From a virus, in IMG/VR virus record IMGVR_UViG_3300022538_000174, positions 1 to 44,698 of that record: a stretch of 44,698 nucleotides of DNA, one strand, 5' to 3'. Below, piece after piece: positions 1,933-44,698 of the stretch. Under the pieces are notes generated by a model. That model had not been told where the DNA came from. It was given only the letters and a program-made list of their open reading frames with translations, and did no database searches. A program made the position numbers and the translations under genes. The number at the start of each line of letters is the position of its first letter. Within the stretch, counting starts at the first letter, position 1.

Positions 1933-1953
1933 CGTTTACTCCTTTCAAAGTTC

Positions 1954-2018
1954 ACAGGGGAGAGAAAAAGAGGGCACAAACCCGATGTAGTAAGTAACCC
2001 AAAAGGACTCTCCCCTGT
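1954..2018 (-). ncRNA. Unit U1 of array A (type I)
   Basis: Arms 1954-1964 and 2008-2018 are perfectly complementary over 11 bp (ACAGGGGAGAG). They enclose 43 bases that include a GGG/CCC mini-hairpin. It is the unit closest to the start of the 51-residue gene, only about 20 bases from the ribosome binding site. Confidence 0.45.
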
Positions 2019-2029
2019 TTCAAATAACG

Positions 2030-2091
2030 TTGGCAGAGGGCGGGCAGGGACTCACACCCTACCTGGTTGTCTCTAACGCCACCTCTGCCAA
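2030..2091 (-). ncRNA. Unit U2 of array A (type II)
   Basis: The closing helix is 10 bp perfect (2030-2039 with 2082-2091). Two inner arms fit a three-way junction on the minus strand. One is a 7-bp stem (2057-2063 with 2043-2049) with a 7-base loop and one G-U pair; the other is a short stem within 2065-2080. On the plus strand the G-U pair becomes a mismatch. Confidence 0.5.
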
Positions 2092-2104
2092 TTTCAAAGG
2101 TCCC

Positions 2105-2164
2105 GGGGGGAGTGTTGCAACGGTCAGGGTCTTGTACGTTTCCCCGACGACTCATACTCCCCCC
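2105..2164 (-). ncRNA. Unit U3 of array A (type I)
   Basis: Arms 2105-2113 and 2156-2164 pair over 9 bp. An inner stem pairs 2142-2148 with 2123-2129 over 7 bp including one G-U on the minus strand. Immediately before it in the transcript is a CCCC-GTA-GGGG mini-hairpin at 2170-2180 and a TTTGACATTGCCC linker, the same arrangement as before U6. Confidence 0.45.
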
Positions 2165-2194
2165 TGTTACCCCGTAGGGGCAATGTCAAAGATA

Positions 2195-2283
2195 GCCCCG
2201 TCCCCGTGCCCGTGGTCTTTCACACCACCTGGTAATCTGGGCGTAGGAACTGACTTCACAGCCAGTAAACGGGGGTGCGGGGC
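2195..2283 (-). ncRNA. Unit U4 of array A (type III)
   Basis: The closing helix (2195-2207 with 2269-2283) has 12 pairs with one small internal loop. Inner arms are 2249-2254/2261-2266 (6 bp, one G-U on the minus strand, 6-base loop) and 2212-2216/2224-2228 (5 bp, 7-base loop). This again fits a three-way junction. Confidence 0.5.
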
Positions 2284-2296
2284 ATTTCAAATAACG

Positions 2297-2386
2297 TTGG
2301 CAGAGATAGCCATCGCCGACCAAGGCAATTCGTGAGTTGGTGTCTCCATGTTTCCCGTATCTCACTAGTTAGCCCACCTCTGCCAA
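2297..2386 (-). ncRNA. Unit U5 of array A (type II)
   Basis: Arms 2297-2305 and 2378-2386 pair over 9 bp with the same sequence as U2. The interior is different and 30 bases longer, with stems 2332-2336/2361-2365 (GTGAG/CTCAC) and 2312-2317/2324-2329 (6 bp, one G-U on the minus strand). Confidence 0.5.
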
Positions 2387-2399
2387 TTCAAAAAGCGCC

Positions 2400-2448
2400 G
2401 GGGAGAGCGTATACATCGCCGGGCCGGGTAAGCCCCTTGACTCTCCCC
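2400..2448 (-). ncRNA. Unit U6 of array A (type I)
   Basis: Arms 2400-2407 and 2441-2448 pair over 8 bp (GGGGAGAG/CTCTCCCC) around 33 bases. It is preceded in the transcript by a 5-bp hairpin (2451-2455 with 2466-2470) and a TTTGACATTGCCC linker, matching U3. A 47-codon ORF with a good AAAGGAG site (ATG near 2505) reads through this unit; I regard it as doubtful. Confidence 0.4.
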
Positions 2449-2573
2449 TATGCCCAGCTTCATCCGGGCAATGTCAAATATCTGAGGCCAGCGCCGAGCC
2501 ACAGCCATGCTATAACTCCTTTACCGTTTTTGCTTAACCTTACTTGCGATAGCAACGCTGACCCCATGTGTAA

Positions 2574-32598: not shown

Positions 32599-32638
32599 CC
32601 AGAACGGTTCCGCCGGGGTTCGATTCCCCGGCTGGCAC
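32598..32638 (+). other. tRNA T-arm/acceptor-like hairpin
   Basis: GCCGGGG (32612-32618) and CCCCGGC (32626-32632) pair over 7 bp around the loop TTCGATT. This loop fits the tRNA T-loop consensus. GCCAG (32598-32602) can pair with CTGGC (32632-32636) as an acceptor-like stem. D and anticodon arms are missing and no CCA follows. It could be the 3' end of a host tRNA (an attP core) or a tRNA mimic; no integrase is present. Confidence 0.6.
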
Positions 32639-32641
32639 AAA

Positions 32642-32730
32642 GTGAATACGACGCCACATACTCAACAATTACCCCTGGCCGGGAACCTCTGCTCGTTACC
32701 GAGCTGTCGTATTCACATCCCGGCCAGGGG
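32642..32730 (+). ncRNA. Interlocked inverted repeats (pseudoknot-capable leader)
   Basis: A = GTGAATACGAC (32642-32652) pairs exactly with A' (32706-32716). B = CCCCTGGCCGGGA (32672-32684) pairs exactly with B' (32718-32730). Their order is A-B-A'-B'. A third hairpin (32691-32695 with 32700-32704, tetraloop) lies between B and A'. The element ends 10 bases before the GAGGGA of the next gene. Only one base separates A' from B'. Confidence 0.7.
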
Positions 32731-32749: not shown

Positions 32750-32938
32750 ATGGCCATCAATAAAGTCTTAGTAAAAAAGATACAACGGTTATCACAAAAG
32801 TATTACGATGACCTCCAGCGTATCTATGATGACGAAATGGACTTGGAGACCTATGAGAACAGTCCCGCTGTCGAAGCCAGCGTAATAGCGCAAGGGGAAG
32901 CCGAAGCCACTGTAAATGCCGATATTGAATGGGATTAA
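32750..32938 (+). CDS. Small acidic protein, 62 aa
   Basis: ATG at 32750 has GAGGGA just upstream and immediately follows the interlocked element. MAINKVLVKKIQRLSQKYYDDLQRIYDDEMDLETYENSP is a basic-then-acidic helical sequence. Unknown; its expression may be controlled by the leader structure. A longer GTG-initiated reading would cross the repeats and is less likely. Confidence 0.62.
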   Translation: MAINKVLVKKIQRLSQKYYDDLQRIYDDEMDLETYENSPAVEASVIAQGEAEATVNADIEWD

Positions 32939-36258: not shown

Positions 36259-36671
36259 AACGGCACCGACTCTTCCCCTGGTTCCGGCACCCAGCCATCC
36301 CCGAAGTCGTAATCTGGGGCGCTTTCCGGCTCCGGGCATACCTGGGTGCCACTTTCGGCTTTTGCGGGCGTGGCGGGTGCCTGGGGGCTGTTAACCGGCT
36401 CTTCTGGCTTATACGTCGCCAGTACCTTGTTCAACTCGCCTTCGCTTGGCTGTCGGCCAAGAGTAAGGTGACATTCCAGGTTTTTGATTAGGGTCTCCAG
36501 CAGGATTATGTTTATGTGCCGCCCGGAACTCTTTGCCAGGCTAACAAGCTCTGGCTTTGGCTCTGCCGTGCCACCATAACAGGTACACTTGCCGATCTCT
36601 TCCACGTTCCAATGCTTGCCGGTCCAGACCAGATCGAACACAAAACCCTGGGTGCAGAGTTGGCAACTCAT
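36255..36671 (-). CDS. Protein with N-terminal zinc finger and disordered tail, 138 aa
   Basis: SCQLCTQGFVFDLVWTGKHWNVEEIGKCTC (2-31) has four cysteines suited to zinc. Residues 85-130 are Pro/Ala/Glu-rich and likely disordered, ending in DYDFGDGWVPEPGEESVPF. It follows the DUF1376 replication gene with ATGA overlap, so a loader or adaptor role is possible but unproven. Confidence 0.55.
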   Translation of the reverse strand: MSCQLCTQGFVFDLVWTGKHWNVEEIGKCTCYGGTAEPKPELVSLAKSSGRHINIILLETLIKNLECHLTLGRQPSEGELNKVLATYKPEEPVNSPQAPATPAKAESGTQVCPEPESAPDYDFGDGWVPEPGEESVPF

Positions 36672-37342
36672 TTATAAAGTCCCCCTGAACCATCTTTCAC
36701 ATCATCCCAGAAATCGTCATTTTTGGCTACTTTCTTATTATCCCTTGATAACCAACCATTTACGAACTTGTTAAGGTTTTTATATCCCTTCTGAGTATTG
36801 CTGAAAGCATAGGCTCTGGCCTCCAAGATGCACTGCGCTATATCAATACCGGGGTAGGCCCGCTCCCATATTACTAACTGCTGTTCAGGGATACTGTCAA
36901 AGAAGTTTGCTAATTTCTGCTCATAAGCAGTAAATGGCTTTTCTTCTTTCTTTTTTTCTGGTTCTTGCTCTGACTTCTTACTCTTACTCTTACTCTTACT
37001 CTGAATACCTATGGCTTTCCTAGTGGGTGACCCATAACGTAACCTAGCCCCTTTTCTGCCACCTTCAACCTGTTTATTGAGAAGAGCTTCCTTTTCAAGC
37101 CTTATCTCATATAGTTTAGGATTGACAAGTTCGCCTGAAATGCATTCGGTAAATTTCAACTGTAGGACAGGCCATTCATTAGCACACTCGATAGGTAACC
37201 TACTAGGTATGCTACTAAGTGACCCATTCTCCCACTGATAACAGAGCAAGTCAATGAAAACCCCCTTCTCTGCCTTGGTCATCCCGGCAGTACCAACCAG
37301 CCATTGCTTTGCATCAAGGGGGAACCAGGGGAGATTATTCAT
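36668..37342 (-). CDS. DUF1376-family replication protein (replisome organiser-like), 224 aa
   Basis: NLPWFPLDAKQWLVGTAGMTKAEKGVFIDLLCYQWENGSLSS (3-43) is the typical start of DUF1376 proteins, found in phage replication modules. A Lys/Ser/Glu-rich linker lies at about 108-140. The C-terminal 80 residues (FDSIPEQQLVIWERAYPGIDIAQ, NKFVNGWLSRD) resemble the C-terminus of phage initiators. It may bind the origin or recruit host helicase. No other initiator is visible. Confidence 0.7.
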   Translation of the reverse strand: MNNLPWFPLDAKQWLVGTAGMTKAEKGVFIDLLCYQWENGSLSSIPSRLPIECANEWPVLQLKFTECISGELVNPKLYEIRLEKEALLNKQVEGGRKGARLRYGSPTRKAIGIQSKSKSKSKKSEQEPEKKKEEKPFTAYEQKLANFFDSIPEQQLVIWERAYPGIDIAQCILEARAYAFSNTQKGYKNLNKFVNGWLSRDNKKVAKNDDFWDDVKDGSGGLYK

Positions 37343-37344
37343 GG

Positions 37345-37815
37345 CTAAAATGGGATTTCTTCATCTTTGATGTTTATAATTTTAGCCGAATGATATTCAG
37401 CATCTTCTTTTGAAAGCAGAAACCCCTTAGATGTCTTCATGTTATTTTCTTCTATCTCTCGTATTTTGGCTAGTCTTTTCAACTCCTTTTTTGAGAACAT
37501 ATACAATATATCATAATTGCCAATAGCATATATCCAGGAATTATCATTTCTAAATACCCCAGAAGGTACATATTCAGCATTTGAGGGAGCTGTCTTTTCG
37601 GCGGTTTCTATCCATAAATTCCCACTATCTTTATATATCATATCATACTTAATTTCAAAACCCGCCTCACTTTCTCCATATTGTAATTGCTCCCACTCAC
37701 TTTCGTAAAGGCCAATATCAAAACCCAATTCCTCTTTTATAACACCGGCAATGTAGTTTTGGTAACGGACTCCTTCATTCATCTTCCCTACATAATATTC
37801 AGTCTTTGCTTTCAT
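37345..37815 (-). CDS. Possible PD-(D/E)XK-type nuclease beside the methyltransferase, 156 aa
   Basis: The start at 37815 overlaps the end of the MT-A70 gene. Residues about 8-25 (VGKMNEGVRYQNYIAGVIKEEL) and FEIKYDMIYKDSGNLWIETAEKTAPSNAEYV suggest an acidic cluster followed by E-x-x-E-K, reminiscent of but not identical to a PD-(D/E)XK site. If real, it may be the restriction partner of the methylase or a recombination nuclease. The assignment is tentative. Confidence 0.5.
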   Translation of the reverse strand: MKAKTEYYVGKMNEGVRYQNYIAGVIKEELGFDIGLYESEWEQLQYGESEAGFEIKYDMIYKDSGNLWIETAEKTAPSNAEYVPSGVFRNDNSWIYAIGNYDILYMFSKKELKRLAKIREIEENNMKTSKGFLLSKEDAEYHSAKIINIKDEEIPF

Positions 37816-38779
37816 ACCCCCAACCTTCCCACTCGTTGGGTAAATCTCCCCTTGCGAACAACTCAATGCGGGGGCCATTGGGGTAAAGTTCATCTATAAT
37901 AGACCTGAACTCTTCTGGCTTTTGTGAGTGTTTCTTGGTTTTTTCTATACTTACTACACTATCGTATAATTTGGAGTTATCTGGCATACAGCTGCCGCGA
38001 GTACAGACCAATAATAATTCATGTCTCACCGAATTGTAATGGCCATAATTATGTTTTATCTTATCCCAAACAAACGCCGCCTTGTAGACAAAACCCCACG
38101 CTTCTATAACTTTAAAGGACTCTGCGAGAAGCGGTGAAGTAACCCAAATAAATAGAACGGCATCGCTATGTGCAAGGTTGATTACTGGCAGGTCACATAA
38201 TTCATATATTTTCATCGTTGGATAATGGTCTTCAGCACCAGAATAGTTTTTTAGACCCCTGCGTGAATCGCCATAGAACCAAGGGGGATCTGCGTAGATA
38301 ACTCTATATTTACCTTTTGGGAATTTACCATCGCTGGCTATCTCATTGTGACGCTTATGTATTTCTGATTTACGAGCTAATGAAGCCACCCCTGCAACAG
38401 TTACTTCCTTGTGTTGCTCACGCAATTCATTAAGGTGGGCTTCAAATTCATTCTCCGGGACGGCTGCTATTTTCTGGGATAGGCTGGAAGTATCGCGGGA
38501 AATGCCAAGATCGGAAAGGCTTGGAGCAACGGTCGTGTCTCTCGACCGTTGATATTCACCAGGTTGTTGTCTCTCTGTTTCTGCCAGCAATTCCCCCATC
38601 CTTCGCATAGCCCGGAGTTTTATTTCGCTGGCCCAGGATACCATTTCAGTGTCCTTAGCTTGCCGAGCGTAAGCCCGAACAGCATCGGCTTTATCGTGGA
38701 TGTCTTTTGCCTCGTCCACCTCTTTGGCTTCCCTTAATGCAATACGAGCCGCTTCGTAACGAACAAGTTTATCAGTCAT
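37799..38779 (-). CDS. MT-A70-family adenine DNA methyltransferase, 326 aa
   Basis: VIYADPPWFYG places the catalytic DPPW at 164-167, followed by MKIYELCDLPV, FIWVTSPLL and HSQKPEEFRSIID, the standard MT-A70 order. These enzymes methylate adenine N6. The N-terminal 150 residues are helical and may be a DNA-binding part. It is the first gene behind a TTGACA promoter and an unusual folded leader. Confidence 0.88.
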   Translation of the reverse strand: MTDKLVRYEAARIALREAKEVDEAKDIHDKADAVRAYARQAKDTEMVSWASEIKLRAMRRMGELLAETERQQPGEYQRSRDTTVAPSLSDLGISRDTSSLSQKIAAVPENEFEAHLNELREQHKEVTVAGVASLARKSEIHKRHNEIASDGKFPKGKYRVIYADPPWFYGDSRRGLKNYSGAEDHYPTMKIYELCDLPVINLAHSDAVLFIWVTSPLLAESFKVIEAWGFVYKAAFVWDKIKHNYGHYNSVRHELLLVCTRGSCMPDNSKLYDSVVSIEKTKKHSQKPEEFRSIIDELYPNGPRIELFARGDLPNEWEGWGYESKD

Positions 38780-38795
38780 TCATTATCTCACAAAA

Positions 38796-38900
38796 GTGCC
38801 CCACCCCCAGGCTTGAGAGCAAACACCAACACAAGGAAGGTAATGCACCTGGGGAGGGGCAGGTTTGAGTAATGCGATATGTTAGTGTTTACTCTCATTA
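38796..38900 (-). ncRNA. Interlocked leader of the methyltransferase operon
   Basis: On the minus strand GAGAGTAAACAC (38894-38883) pairs with GTGTTTGCTCTC (38824-38813), 12 pairs with one G-U. GCCCCTCCCCAGG (38858-38846) pairs with CCTGGGGGTGGGGC (38809-38796). The order is A-B-A'-B' and only 3 bases separate the last two arms. A 5' GGTAATG (38900-38894) can also pair with either of two CATTAC segments (38872-38867 or 38843-38838). It occupies almost the whole untranslated leader. Confidence 0.7.
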
Positions 38901-38904
38901 CCCT

Positions 38905-38934
38905 AGAGTTTATCTTGTTGAAAAGCCGTTGTCA
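38905..38934 (-). promoter_or_regulatory. Sigma70-like promoter of the methyltransferase operon
   Basis: On the minus strand TTGACA (38934-38929) is followed after 18 bases by TAAACT (38910-38905), or after 16 by GATAAA. Transcription would start near 38898, at the first base of the interlocked leader. Confidence 0.6.
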
Positions 38935-39237
38935 AGGACTATTGTTCGCTATCTCTTCTTCTACCAGTTCCATCATACGTTCCATTGTAGACAACGAGAC
39001 ACTGTACGGCATATAGGCTTGTCGCCAACACCTAGATTCATTATCCCATCGATCTTCATATATAGAAAGCGTAGGCTCCCGATTAGGATGGGGGATTATG
39101 GCGAATCTCAGCCTATAACAAAAAGGCAAAGTAAAGAAGGCCACACCATAATCTTCTGGTTCATTAGGGAGATCATTAGTAGCAGTACGGCTAAAAGTCC
39201 ATTTCGCATCAACGGTTCCGGCTGGTTTTTTCTTCAC
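38932..39237 (-). CDS. Unknown protein, 101 aa
   Basis: GTG at 39237 lies in GTGA with the previous gene and has GGAG five bases upstream. KWTFSRTATNDLPNEPEDYGVAFFTLPFCYRLRFAIIPHPNREPTLSIYEDRWDNESRCW is a beta-rich sequence without known family. The end overlaps the -35 of the methylase promoter, so this gene closes its own operon. Confidence 0.55.
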   Translation of the reverse strand: MKKKPAGTVDAKWTFSRTATNDLPNEPEDYGVAFFTLPFCYRLRFAIIPHPNREPTLSIYEDRWDNESRCWRQAYMPYSVSLSTMERMMELVEEEIANNSP

Positions 39238-39582: not shown

Positions 39583-39619
39583 TTCCTCCATTGTGTTAAA
39601 GATTCCCCCGCTACGATCC
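39583..39619 (-). promoter_or_regulatory. Start-associated leader motif, copy 1
   Basis: The minus strand reads GGATCGTAGCGGG, GGAATCTTTAACAC, AATGGAGG and then the ATG at 39580. The same string with few changes precedes genes at 39904 and 40762, and partly at 3324. It combines the Shine-Dalgarno site with about 25 conserved upstream bases. Confidence 0.5.
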
Positions 39620-39909: not shown

Positions 39910-39944
39910 TCCTCCATTGTGTTGTAGATTAGCCCGCTACGATC
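39910..39944 (-). promoter_or_regulatory. Start-associated leader motif, copy 2
   Basis: Minus strand: GGATCGTAGCGGG, CTAATCTACAACAC, AATGGAGG. It lies in the 32-base gap between the Dam gene and the 84-residue gene and overlaps the end of Dam. Conservation of the upstream part beyond the ribosome site suggests more than ribosome binding. Confidence 0.5.
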
Positions 39945-40374
39945 CAAGCCCAGCAGAGGGCGGCCTGAAGATTACAATTGCCAATGGCTGAGGCAGTCCA
40001 TACTTTGCCCCCTTGAATTTAGGGCGACCCCGAATGAACCGCACCTCTCCTTTCTCACAGTAATCATGCCACCAATTTGTATTTGTCCTAGAGGGCAAGA
40101 GACAAACTACTGTTGTTCCATTAAGTGATTCTTCATAGGCTTTTTTTACCCACTTTCCCTGTTCTCCAAATGGCGGATTCATCCAACAAACACCAGACCA
40201 GACCTGATTCAACCCATTGTCAACATCTGTAAAATAATTAGCACACTTTGCATTATGAGATTGCGCGCAAACGTCAAGAGTAAAAGAAAACTCCCCGTCA
40301 AGTGGCAAGAATATCTCACCTGGAGTTTCCCAGTCCTGTTTAGCAGAGTCAAATTTTGTCTCAAATCGTGCCAT
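39937..40374 (-). CDS. dam: Phage DNA N6-adenine methyltransferase (Dam family), 145 aa
   Basis: DWETPGEIFLPLDGEFSFTLDVCA (about 14-37), CWMNPPFG (63-70, catalytic NPPF), LLPSRTNTNWWHDYC and VRFIRGRPKFKG follow the order of the phage Dam family. It methylates adenine N6, probably protecting phage DNA. The ATG at 40374 shares TGATG with the previous gene. It is the second adenine methylase of this genome. Confidence 0.9.
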   Translation of the reverse strand: MARFETKFDSAKQDWETPGEIFLPLDGEFSFTLDVCAQSHNAKCANYFTDVDNGLNQVWSGVCWMNPPFGEQGKWVKKAYEESLNGTTVVCLLPSRTNTNWWHDYCEKGEVRFIRGRPKFKGAKYGLPQPLAIVIFRPPSAGLGS

Positions 40375-40580
40375 CAATTCGCTGCATCAGCACAAGATTG
40401 ACAGTGAGTGCCGCTTGTCCAATGATATTCTTCACCGGGCGGGATTTCTTCATTGCATGACACACAGCGATAAACCCGAATTGCTTTTGCCCCCGTATAG
40501 AGAGCCATTATGTGCGGCGCAAGTCGCCCAAGCGGAACATTCCAAATGAGCCAAGATAGAAATTTGTACCAATAAGTCAT
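40374..40580 (-). CDS. Zinc-binding small protein, 68 aa
   Basis: The start at 40580 shares ATGA with the preceding gene and has GGAGGG upstream. The first 35 residues are Trp/Leu-rich (MTYWYKFLSWLIWNVPLGRL) and may be membrane-peripheral. Then CVSCNEEIPPGEEYHWTSGTHCQSC gives a four-cysteine zinc site. Function unknown. Confidence 0.6.
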   Translation of the reverse strand: MTYWYKFLSWLIWNVPLGRLAPHIMALYTGAKAIRVYRCVSCNEEIPPGEEYHWTSGTHCQSCADAAN

Positions 40581-40762: not shown

Positions 40763-40769
40763 TGTTATT

Positions 40770-40801
40770 CCTCCAATTTGTAGATTATCCCGCTATGATC
40801 C
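40770..40801 (-). promoter_or_regulatory. Start-associated leader motif, copy 3
   Basis: Minus strand: GGATCATAGCGGG, ATAATCTACAA, ATTGGAGG. The stretch GATAAT, 17 bases after ATGACC, could also serve as a promoter -10. It overlaps the end of the 46-residue membrane gene. Confidence 0.5.
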
Positions 40802-40933
40802 AGGGCGGTCATCTCGGCCCGGCCCCAGGAACTCAGGCATCTTCCTGATGCGCTCGTCCGACCTGTGGCTGATCCTGCCGATGATAAGAGCCAAGAAAAT
40901 GATCCCCAGCCCTATGCCGATGATCCATTCCAT
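40793..40933 (-). CDS. Single-span membrane microprotein, 46 aa
   Basis: MEWIIGIGLGIIFLALIIGR is a clear transmembrane helix, followed by a charged tail (ISHRSDERIRKMPEFLGPG). GAGGGA lies eight b upstream of the ATG at 40933. Membrane role unknown. Confidence 0.6.
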   Translation of the reverse strand: MEWIIGIGLGIIFLALIIGRISHRSDERIRKMPEFLGPGRDDRPGS

Positions 40934-44528: not shown

Positions 44529-44566
44529 GCCTTCTTCTTTTTGCGCTTGGGCTTAGGATGCGGCAT
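44525..44566 (-). CDS. Possible 13-residue microprotein (MPHPKPKRKKKKA)
   Basis: ATG at 44566 follows GGAG seven bases upstream and stops in ATGA shared with the next gene, so it should be translated, as at neighbouring junctions. Its first residues resemble the N-terminus of the LAGLIDADG protein (MPHPKKKRKKR). It may be only a coupling peptide. Confidence 0.4.
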   Translation of the reverse strand: MPHPKPKRKKKKA

Positions 44567-44698
44567 GTAGTAACTCCAGGTTCTCGAAGTGATTGCCGAT
44601 GACTTCCATCCAATCGCCTATTTCTGTACAATCATAAGATGGAGACTGTCCCAGCTGCCCCTTGCACTCGACATAAAACGCCCCATAAGTGCAAACGC
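44553..44698 (-). CDS. YopX-like gene, C-terminal end (continues at 1-415)
   Basis: This is the other side of the circle junction: the last 48 codons of the gene that starts at 415, ending in TAA at 44555-44553 (FENLELLHAAS). It overlaps the 13-codon ORF. It is not a separate gene. Confidence 0.85.
   Translation of the reverse strand, partial: VCTYGAFYVECKGQLGQSPSYDCTEIGDWMEVIGNHFENLELLHAAS
44558..44698. repeat. Terminal direct repeat, second copy
   Basis: Identical to 1-141; see the first copy. Joining the ends here restores one uninterrupted YopX-like reading frame. Confidence 0.95.

Follow-up and report, generated by a model that had tools for sequence, protein, structure and literature searches.

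The early operon of the phage in virus record IMGVR_UViG_3300022538_000174 contains a promoter and, ahead of the gene for an MT-A70 family methyltransferase (ATG at 38779), a leader whose long complementary arms are interlocked in the order A-B-A'-B'. This observation is confirmed here as real, and there is a high probability that the leader is a genuine RNA structure element, with a function that we infer from its layout; the case for structure is strong, that for a mechanism indirect. Our best reading, to which we assign a probability of about 0.55, is that the leader folds during transcription as a pseudoknot or a switch and acts on translation initiation, that its pairing has been selected rather than its sequence, and that the same design has been reused before other replication and modification genes.

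Genome, promoter and operon

The window, i.e. the whole stretch of DNA that was analysed, comprises the 44,698 bases of the virus record. A perfect direct repeat of 141 bases is present at both ends (1-141 and 44558-44698), and the window is therefore probably the complete genome of a phage with either circular permutation or terminal redundancy. A 35-kb fragment from another record (L006/G001, IMGVR_UViG_3300022539_000128) shares an identical terminase with the window phage and matches the right end of the window at 100%; it stops before the leader region.

The leader is encoded on the minus strand. In this part of the early operon, the gap between a 101-aa ORF (39237-38932) and the MT-A70 gene (38779-37799) is unusually long, and the leader occupies it. 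The features are as follows.

38907-38935, minus strand: predicted sigma-70-type promoter, TTGACA-17-TAAACT, 10/12 to consensus
38780-38903, minus strand: leader, from the predicted transcript start to the base before the ATG, 124 bases
38878-38897, minus strand: arm A (5' side), pairs with A' (38833-38814)
38867-38875, minus strand: arm C, GCATTACTC, with two possible partners, the 5' GGTAATG and GTGAGATAATG around the ribosome-binding site
38848-38863, minus strand: arm B, CCTGCCCCTCCCCAGG, partner of B'
38839-38845, minus strand: CATTACC, by complementarity a second alternative partner of the 5' GGTAATG
38814-38833, minus strand: arm A', partner of arm A
38798-38812, minus strand: arm B', ends 18 nt before the ATG
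38780-38791, minus strand: weak Shine-Dalgarno sequence GTGAG plus the bases after it, which the minimum-energy fold pairs with arm C
37799-38779, minus strand: MT-A70 family methyltransferase, 326 aa (PF05063, 2.3e-21)
37345-37893, minus strand: 182-aa protein whose fold is predicted to be that of a PD-(D/E)XK-like nuclease (structure model and invariant residues)
36668-37342, minus strand: primosomal/replication-like protein (DUF1376 below cut-off; PHROG 9327)

The -35 box TTGACA (38935-38930), which overlaps the stop codon of the upstream ORF, is separated by 17 nt from the -10 box TAAACT (38912-38907). The genome as a whole has five sites with a perfect -35 box and at least 10/12 matches overall, where shuffled sequences give 1.15. 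Promoter and start site are predictions from the sequence; the start would fall at about 38902-38900, the 5' edge of the arms, which agrees with the original prediction that a TTGACA promoter starts the RNA at the leader. That prediction gave no strand, and both elements can now be placed on the minus strand.

The genes behind the leader appear to be a methyltransferase-nuclease pair and a replication gene, to judge from the MT-A70, PD-(D/E)XK-like and replication-like products. The operon had been expected to encode DNA modification and a replication protein, and this is borne out by the PF05063 match and by the third gene, which matches PHROG primosomal and replication families. A homologue of the 182-aa protein follows MT-A70 in 11 related phage loci, and the gene pair (37345-38779) is conserved in L003, L013, L014, L016-L022 and L028. 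The nuclease-like partner belongs to no Pfam family. The best alignments of the AlphaFold2 model of the 182-aa protein (mean pLDDT 78.6) are with PD-(D/E)XK nucleases (I-Ssp6803I with Z 9.0, Eco15I and Hjc with 8.1 each, NhoI, PvuII), and Foldseek gave no match for it at E <= 0.001. The predicted assignment is based on the leading aligned chains, which are of that superfamily (Z 9.0 to 8), together with the invariant residues E80, K82, D84, E96 and E99.

The same early region encodes a second DNA methyltransferase (39937-40377; Dam family, PF05869, 5.6e-30). A dispersed 36-base repeat (GGATCGTAGCGGG..AATCT..AACACAATGGAGGA) is present on the minus strand at 39584-39619, 39910-39945 and 40765-40802; located just before small genes, this repeat may be a shared leader and ribosome-binding segment.

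Architecture and folding of the leader

The original prediction had the order of the arms right, but its lengths of 12 and 13 pairs need correction: A:A' consists of 20 continuous pairs (17 Watson-Crick and three G.U) and B:B' of about 15 pairs with one bulge, with duplex energies of -29.5 and -30.1 kcal/mol, respectively. The two alternative CATTAC partners that had been noticed for the 5' GGTAATG (38902-38896) were located at 38875-38867 and 38845-38839. The pairing of GCATTACTC with GTGAGATAATG at the ribosome-binding site is part of the minimum-energy fold. Only about 1-2 nt link A' to B'.

Such an arrangement is not expected by chance. The interlock score of the leader was reached by none of 1000 dinucleotide shuffles (simple stem score), and among 2876 genome windows on both strands the leader ranks first. 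The fold z-score is -2.87 for the minus (mRNA) strand versus -1.19 for the plus strand. The nested alternatives are all within 3 kcal/mol of each other: B:B' together with C on the ribosome-binding site gives -45.3 kcal/mol, B:B' together with A:C gives -44.8 kcal/mol, and A:A' gives -42.4 kcal/mol. When prefixes of growing length are folded, A:C appears first, followed by A paired with the second CATTAC and, from about 85 nt, by A:A', which is replaced by B:B' once B' is complete at about 109 nt. The final exchange, with A:A' folded until B' appears and B:B' winning thereafter, was also obtained in simulations of four other leaders, namely the three of phage contig L091 and the second leader of the window, which are described below.

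Part of the leader (38827-38857) is complementary over 31 nt to a segment of the MT-A70 coding sequence (38386-38416), a match that was considered and dismissed: its score is reached in 11 of 60 shuffles genome-wide, which is chance level, though locally in only 3 of 300.

Relation to known RNA families

The Rfam scan recommended with the original prediction matched no family: none of the Rfam 15 covariance models, which include riboswitches, leaders and the c4 antisense RNA (RF01695), reached its gathering score anywhere in the window, and the best result within the leader was a 16-bit chance match. The leaders of L094/L095 (see below) gave no Rfam match either. The suggested likeness to riboswitches finds no backing in an Rfam match or in evidence for a ligand. 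An attenuator is likewise not clearly indicated: B:B' is followed by ACUUUUGUG, with a run of only four U, and was not called by the terminator scanner; the hairpin that the scanner did call, at 38823-38800, is another one and has few G-C pairs.

Homologues were sought by way of MT-A70 (three close and 80 distant relatives), the terminase, the replication proteins and the upstream proteins, and none was found with this leader; DNA searches of phages and plasmids also yielded no homologue. In the close MT-A70 relatives L002, L003 and L004 (41-60% identity), the upstream genes are overlapping or unrelated. Among the 80 further relatives, a comparable leader was present in one phage only (L055/L091), and no sequence homology was seen between its leaders and that of the window. 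An exact match to arm A in contig L005 was rejected, as it sits inside unrelated sequence.

The same layout in other leaders

A second interlocked leader is present in the window phage itself.

32642-32730, plus strand: second interlocked leader, 11 + 13 perfect pairs; next ATG at 32750
32642-32652, plus strand: arm A, GTGAATACGAC, pairs perfectly with A' (32706-32716)
32672-32684, plus strand: arm B, CCCCTGGCCGGGA, pairs perfectly with B' (32718-32730)

No promoter was found directly before it. The plus-strand segment immediately ahead of this leader (32599-32640) forms a hairpin resembling a tRNA T arm (GCCGGGGTTCGATTCCCCGGC, closed by GCCAG/CTGGC), for which a tRNA fragment, an attachment site and a processing site are candidate readings. 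Elsewhere in the window, the non-coding stretch at 1940-2520 (minus strand, before the ORF at 1932) holds a row of hairpins with 10-bp stems, such as TTGGCAGAGG/CCTCTGCCAA and ACAGGGGAGAG/CTCTCCCCTGT, with loops of 35-70 nt and repeated TTTCAAA spacers. Some of these resemble tRNA acceptor and T arms, and one pair is again interlocked (score 25); ARAGORN and Rfam find nothing in the stretch.

The one exception among the MT-A70 relatives, the 12-kb phage contig L055/L091, belongs to a 30-kb record (L094/L095). Three leaders built on this plan, with arms in the order A-M-C-A'-M'-C', are found there, ahead of an MT-A70 gene, an HNH and primase gene pair, and a DnaD-like gene. Each is located behind a near-consensus promoter (TTGACA-16/17-TATAAT or TATGAT), and the distance from the end of the -10 box to the ATG is 113-117 nt, versus 127 nt in the window. 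In Nitratiruptor phages NrS-2 and NrS-3, which are in culture, a DUF6291 gene is preceded by an interlocked leader whose hairpin loop, GTTGGTCCTT, has AAGGACCAAC as its partner; this partner, the last arm, is the Shine-Dalgarno sequence beside the ATG. One more interlocked leader, in L208, precedes a helicase-like gene behind a promoter-like sequence. The distance from the end of the last arm to the start codon is 0-20 nt in all members.

A census of phage loci comprised 2212 leaders, of which four scored at least 26 compared to none in 4424 shuffles, a count that is not independent of the discovery because L094 was brought in on account of its leaders; one of these four, L208 605, has repeated TATCGAACC blocks and is doubtful. 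With stricter settings, three of 1857 leaders scored at least 27 versus 0.25 in shuffles. The design appears to be rare, since none of 81 phage leaders picked solely by a consensus promoter and a Shine-Dalgarno sequence has two interlocked arms of at least 8, and a general enrichment behind consensus phage promoters was accordingly discarded. No leader of lambda, T7, TP901-1, N15 or A118 scored 23 or more in the census, and no further member came from about 400 genomes of a single bacterial phylum in which DUF6291 and MT-A70 loci were examined. A promoter leader of another kind was encountered in L099 (minus strand, 8195-8033), which has two hairpins, a GTTGTGG/CCACAAC loop-loop match and an outer stem that includes the Shine-Dalgarno sequence; it resembles a riboswitch-like three-way junction and has no Rfam match.

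Selection on pairing

Leaders 1 and 2 of L091 are paralogues that can be aligned in register from promoter to start codon and have TTTATAAGGAT in common. Of 21 pairs, 10 have changed on both sides and still pair, six of them in A:A' and four in the second interlocked helix. This number was reached by none of 500 shuffles, and registers slid by 1-3 positions give 0-2; the comparison is a single one between two sequences, informative through its many sites. As neither interlocked helix has been lost, both must be in use by the RNA, either at once or one after the other. Arms within an element pair fully or nearly so, whereas pairing is poor when A and C arms are exchanged between elements.

A further indication comes from the non-Watson-Crick positions inside the arms of seven leaders, which in the mRNA sense comprise 10 G.U, no A.C and five others. 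The arms were found with a strand-symmetric score, but some members were found with a score that tolerates G.U, which biases this count; in the four leaders found by exact Watson-Crick arms (L091 leaders 2 and 3, NrS-3 and the plus-strand leader of the window) the ratio of G.U to A.C is 6:0. The 10 to 0 asymmetry points to selection on pairing of RNA, not of double-stranded DNA. Although no homologue of the window leader was found, the compensatory changes in L091 and the G.U asymmetry thus lend indirect support to pairing of its arms in RNA.

Proposed mechanism and alternative explanations

In our model, the MT-A70/nuclease/replication operon has the leader as its structured 5' untranslated region. 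RNA synthesis would begin at arm A, and a 5' hairpin would form first, by pairing of A with C and then with A'. As B' emerges, the loop arm B would pair with it beside the ribosome-binding site, after which the RNA may either hold both helices as a long-armed pseudoknot or refold from A:A' to B:B'. The state of the leader would then set the ease with which ribosomes start at the MT-A70 gene. The order of folding, the action on translation and any signal involved are what we infer. Translation initiation is the most likely target, since the last arm lies near the ribosome-binding site in all members. Members differ in whether the Shine-Dalgarno sequence is free, as in L091, or paired, so that the effect on translation may not be the same in all. 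With a linker of 1-2 nt between A' and B', a classical coaxial pseudoknot would be strained in the window leader, which makes a switch as likely as a static knot, although a stack through the continuous A'-B' strand could be compatible with the lengths of the other loops.

A different possibility is an autogenous translational operator, in which the methyltransferase, the nuclease or the replication protein encoded by the operon would bind a pseudoknot in its own leader. The analogy is with gp32 of T4 and RB69, whose gene has a 5' pseudoknot upstream of the Shine-Dalgarno sequence (PMC535899, PMC3014915), and most downstream genes with a recognised product do encode DNA-acting proteins. These proteins are mutually unrelated, however, and the arm sequences are not conserved, so that no common protein site is visible; moreover, arms of 9-20 pairs abut the ribosome-binding site here, where gene 32 has a pseudoknot of about 28 nt and a single-stranded AU-rich tail. 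We regard this explanation as unlikely, though still the foremost of the alternatives. Somewhat less probable is a role in mRNA stability or processing, with A:A' hiding the 5' end from 5'-dependent decay and the B:B' hairpin serving as an RNase III site before the ribosome-binding site. The position of arm A at the predicted 5' end in the window and L091 leaders would fit, as would B/C helices of 14-25 pairs ahead of the ribosome-binding site, but a simple hairpin would suffice for such purposes and two conserved interlocked helices would be left unexplained.

Inverted repeats that adjoin a promoter and precede replication genes could also act in the DNA, as an operator, a replication origin or a recombination site. 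A strand-symmetric DNA site does not predict the ratio of 10 G.U to 0 A.C in the mRNA sense, nor the difference in fold z-score between the strands (-2.87 and -1.19), and the layout is always found directly ahead of a start codon, which makes an element of this type very improbable. We give equally little credence to chance complementarity within an ordinary intergenic gap. The failure to find a homologue of the window leader would be in keeping with it, but the shuffles (0/1000), the rank of 1 in 2876 windows, the second leader in the same phage with its 11 + 13 perfect pairs, and the recurrence and covariation in other phages all argue against it.

Comparison with known leaders and significance

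The leader belongs to the general kind of pseudoknot leaders, and differs from the named examples in size, arm length, reuse within a genome and lack of sequence conservation. In gene 32 of T4, T2 and RB69, a 5' leader pseudoknot upstream of the Shine-Dalgarno sequence is part of a translational operator bound by gp32 (PMC535899, PMC3014915). The similarity is that interlocked arms occur at the 5' end of the leader of a phage mRNA, before genes of a DNA-replication type. The compact gene 32 pseudoknot is followed by a single-stranded AU-rich region with UUAAA repeats, which takes up more than 40 nt before the start and is bound by gp32, whereas the window leader has only 18 nt from B' to the ATG and no UUAAA repeats. 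The present leaders span about 90 nt, sometimes have three interlocked helices, and occur several times per genome before different genes. Gene 32 encodes the single-strand-binding protein that binds its leader; the first gene here is MT-A70.

The tisB mRNA has an H-type pseudoknot at its 5' end, for which a role in helping 30S/S1 to initiate on structured mRNA has been proposed (PMC7708055). It shares with the present leaders the pseudoknot-type arms at the 5' end, but its stems have 9 and 5 pairs and its sequestered ribosome-binding site is about 100 nt downstream, as compared to 0-20 nt between the last arm and the start codon here. A distant single-stranded standby region of the tisB type is absent from the window leader, where the last arm lies 18 nt before the ATG. 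The alternative partners of the 5' arm and the near-equal energies are reminiscent of riboswitches and attenuators with mutually exclusive helices, from which the leaders differ by the lack of an Rfam match, of a conserved ligand-binding core between members and of a clear terminator.

At least three other phages have this design, in another sequence, ahead of similar genes, which suggests a little-noticed RNA control switch. If interlocked leaders with long arms are recurrent in unrelated phages ahead of replication and modification genes, a form of RNA control has escaped notice because its shape, rather than its sequence, is conserved. More tentatively, and with less confidence than we have in the main reading, the leaders may represent a class of phage regulatory RNA defined by geometry rather than sequence, with two or three long interlocked helices in a promoter-proximal leader, several copies per genome ahead of replication and DNA-modification genes and with private arms, and a timer based on ordered co-transcriptional folding. 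With private arms, the copies in one genome would not pair among themselves, and members of such a class would be missed by family searches that rely on sequence. Since the cultured phages NrS-2 and NrS-3 carry one leader, direct testing is possible, and interlocked leaders are natural material for studying strand exchange during transcription.
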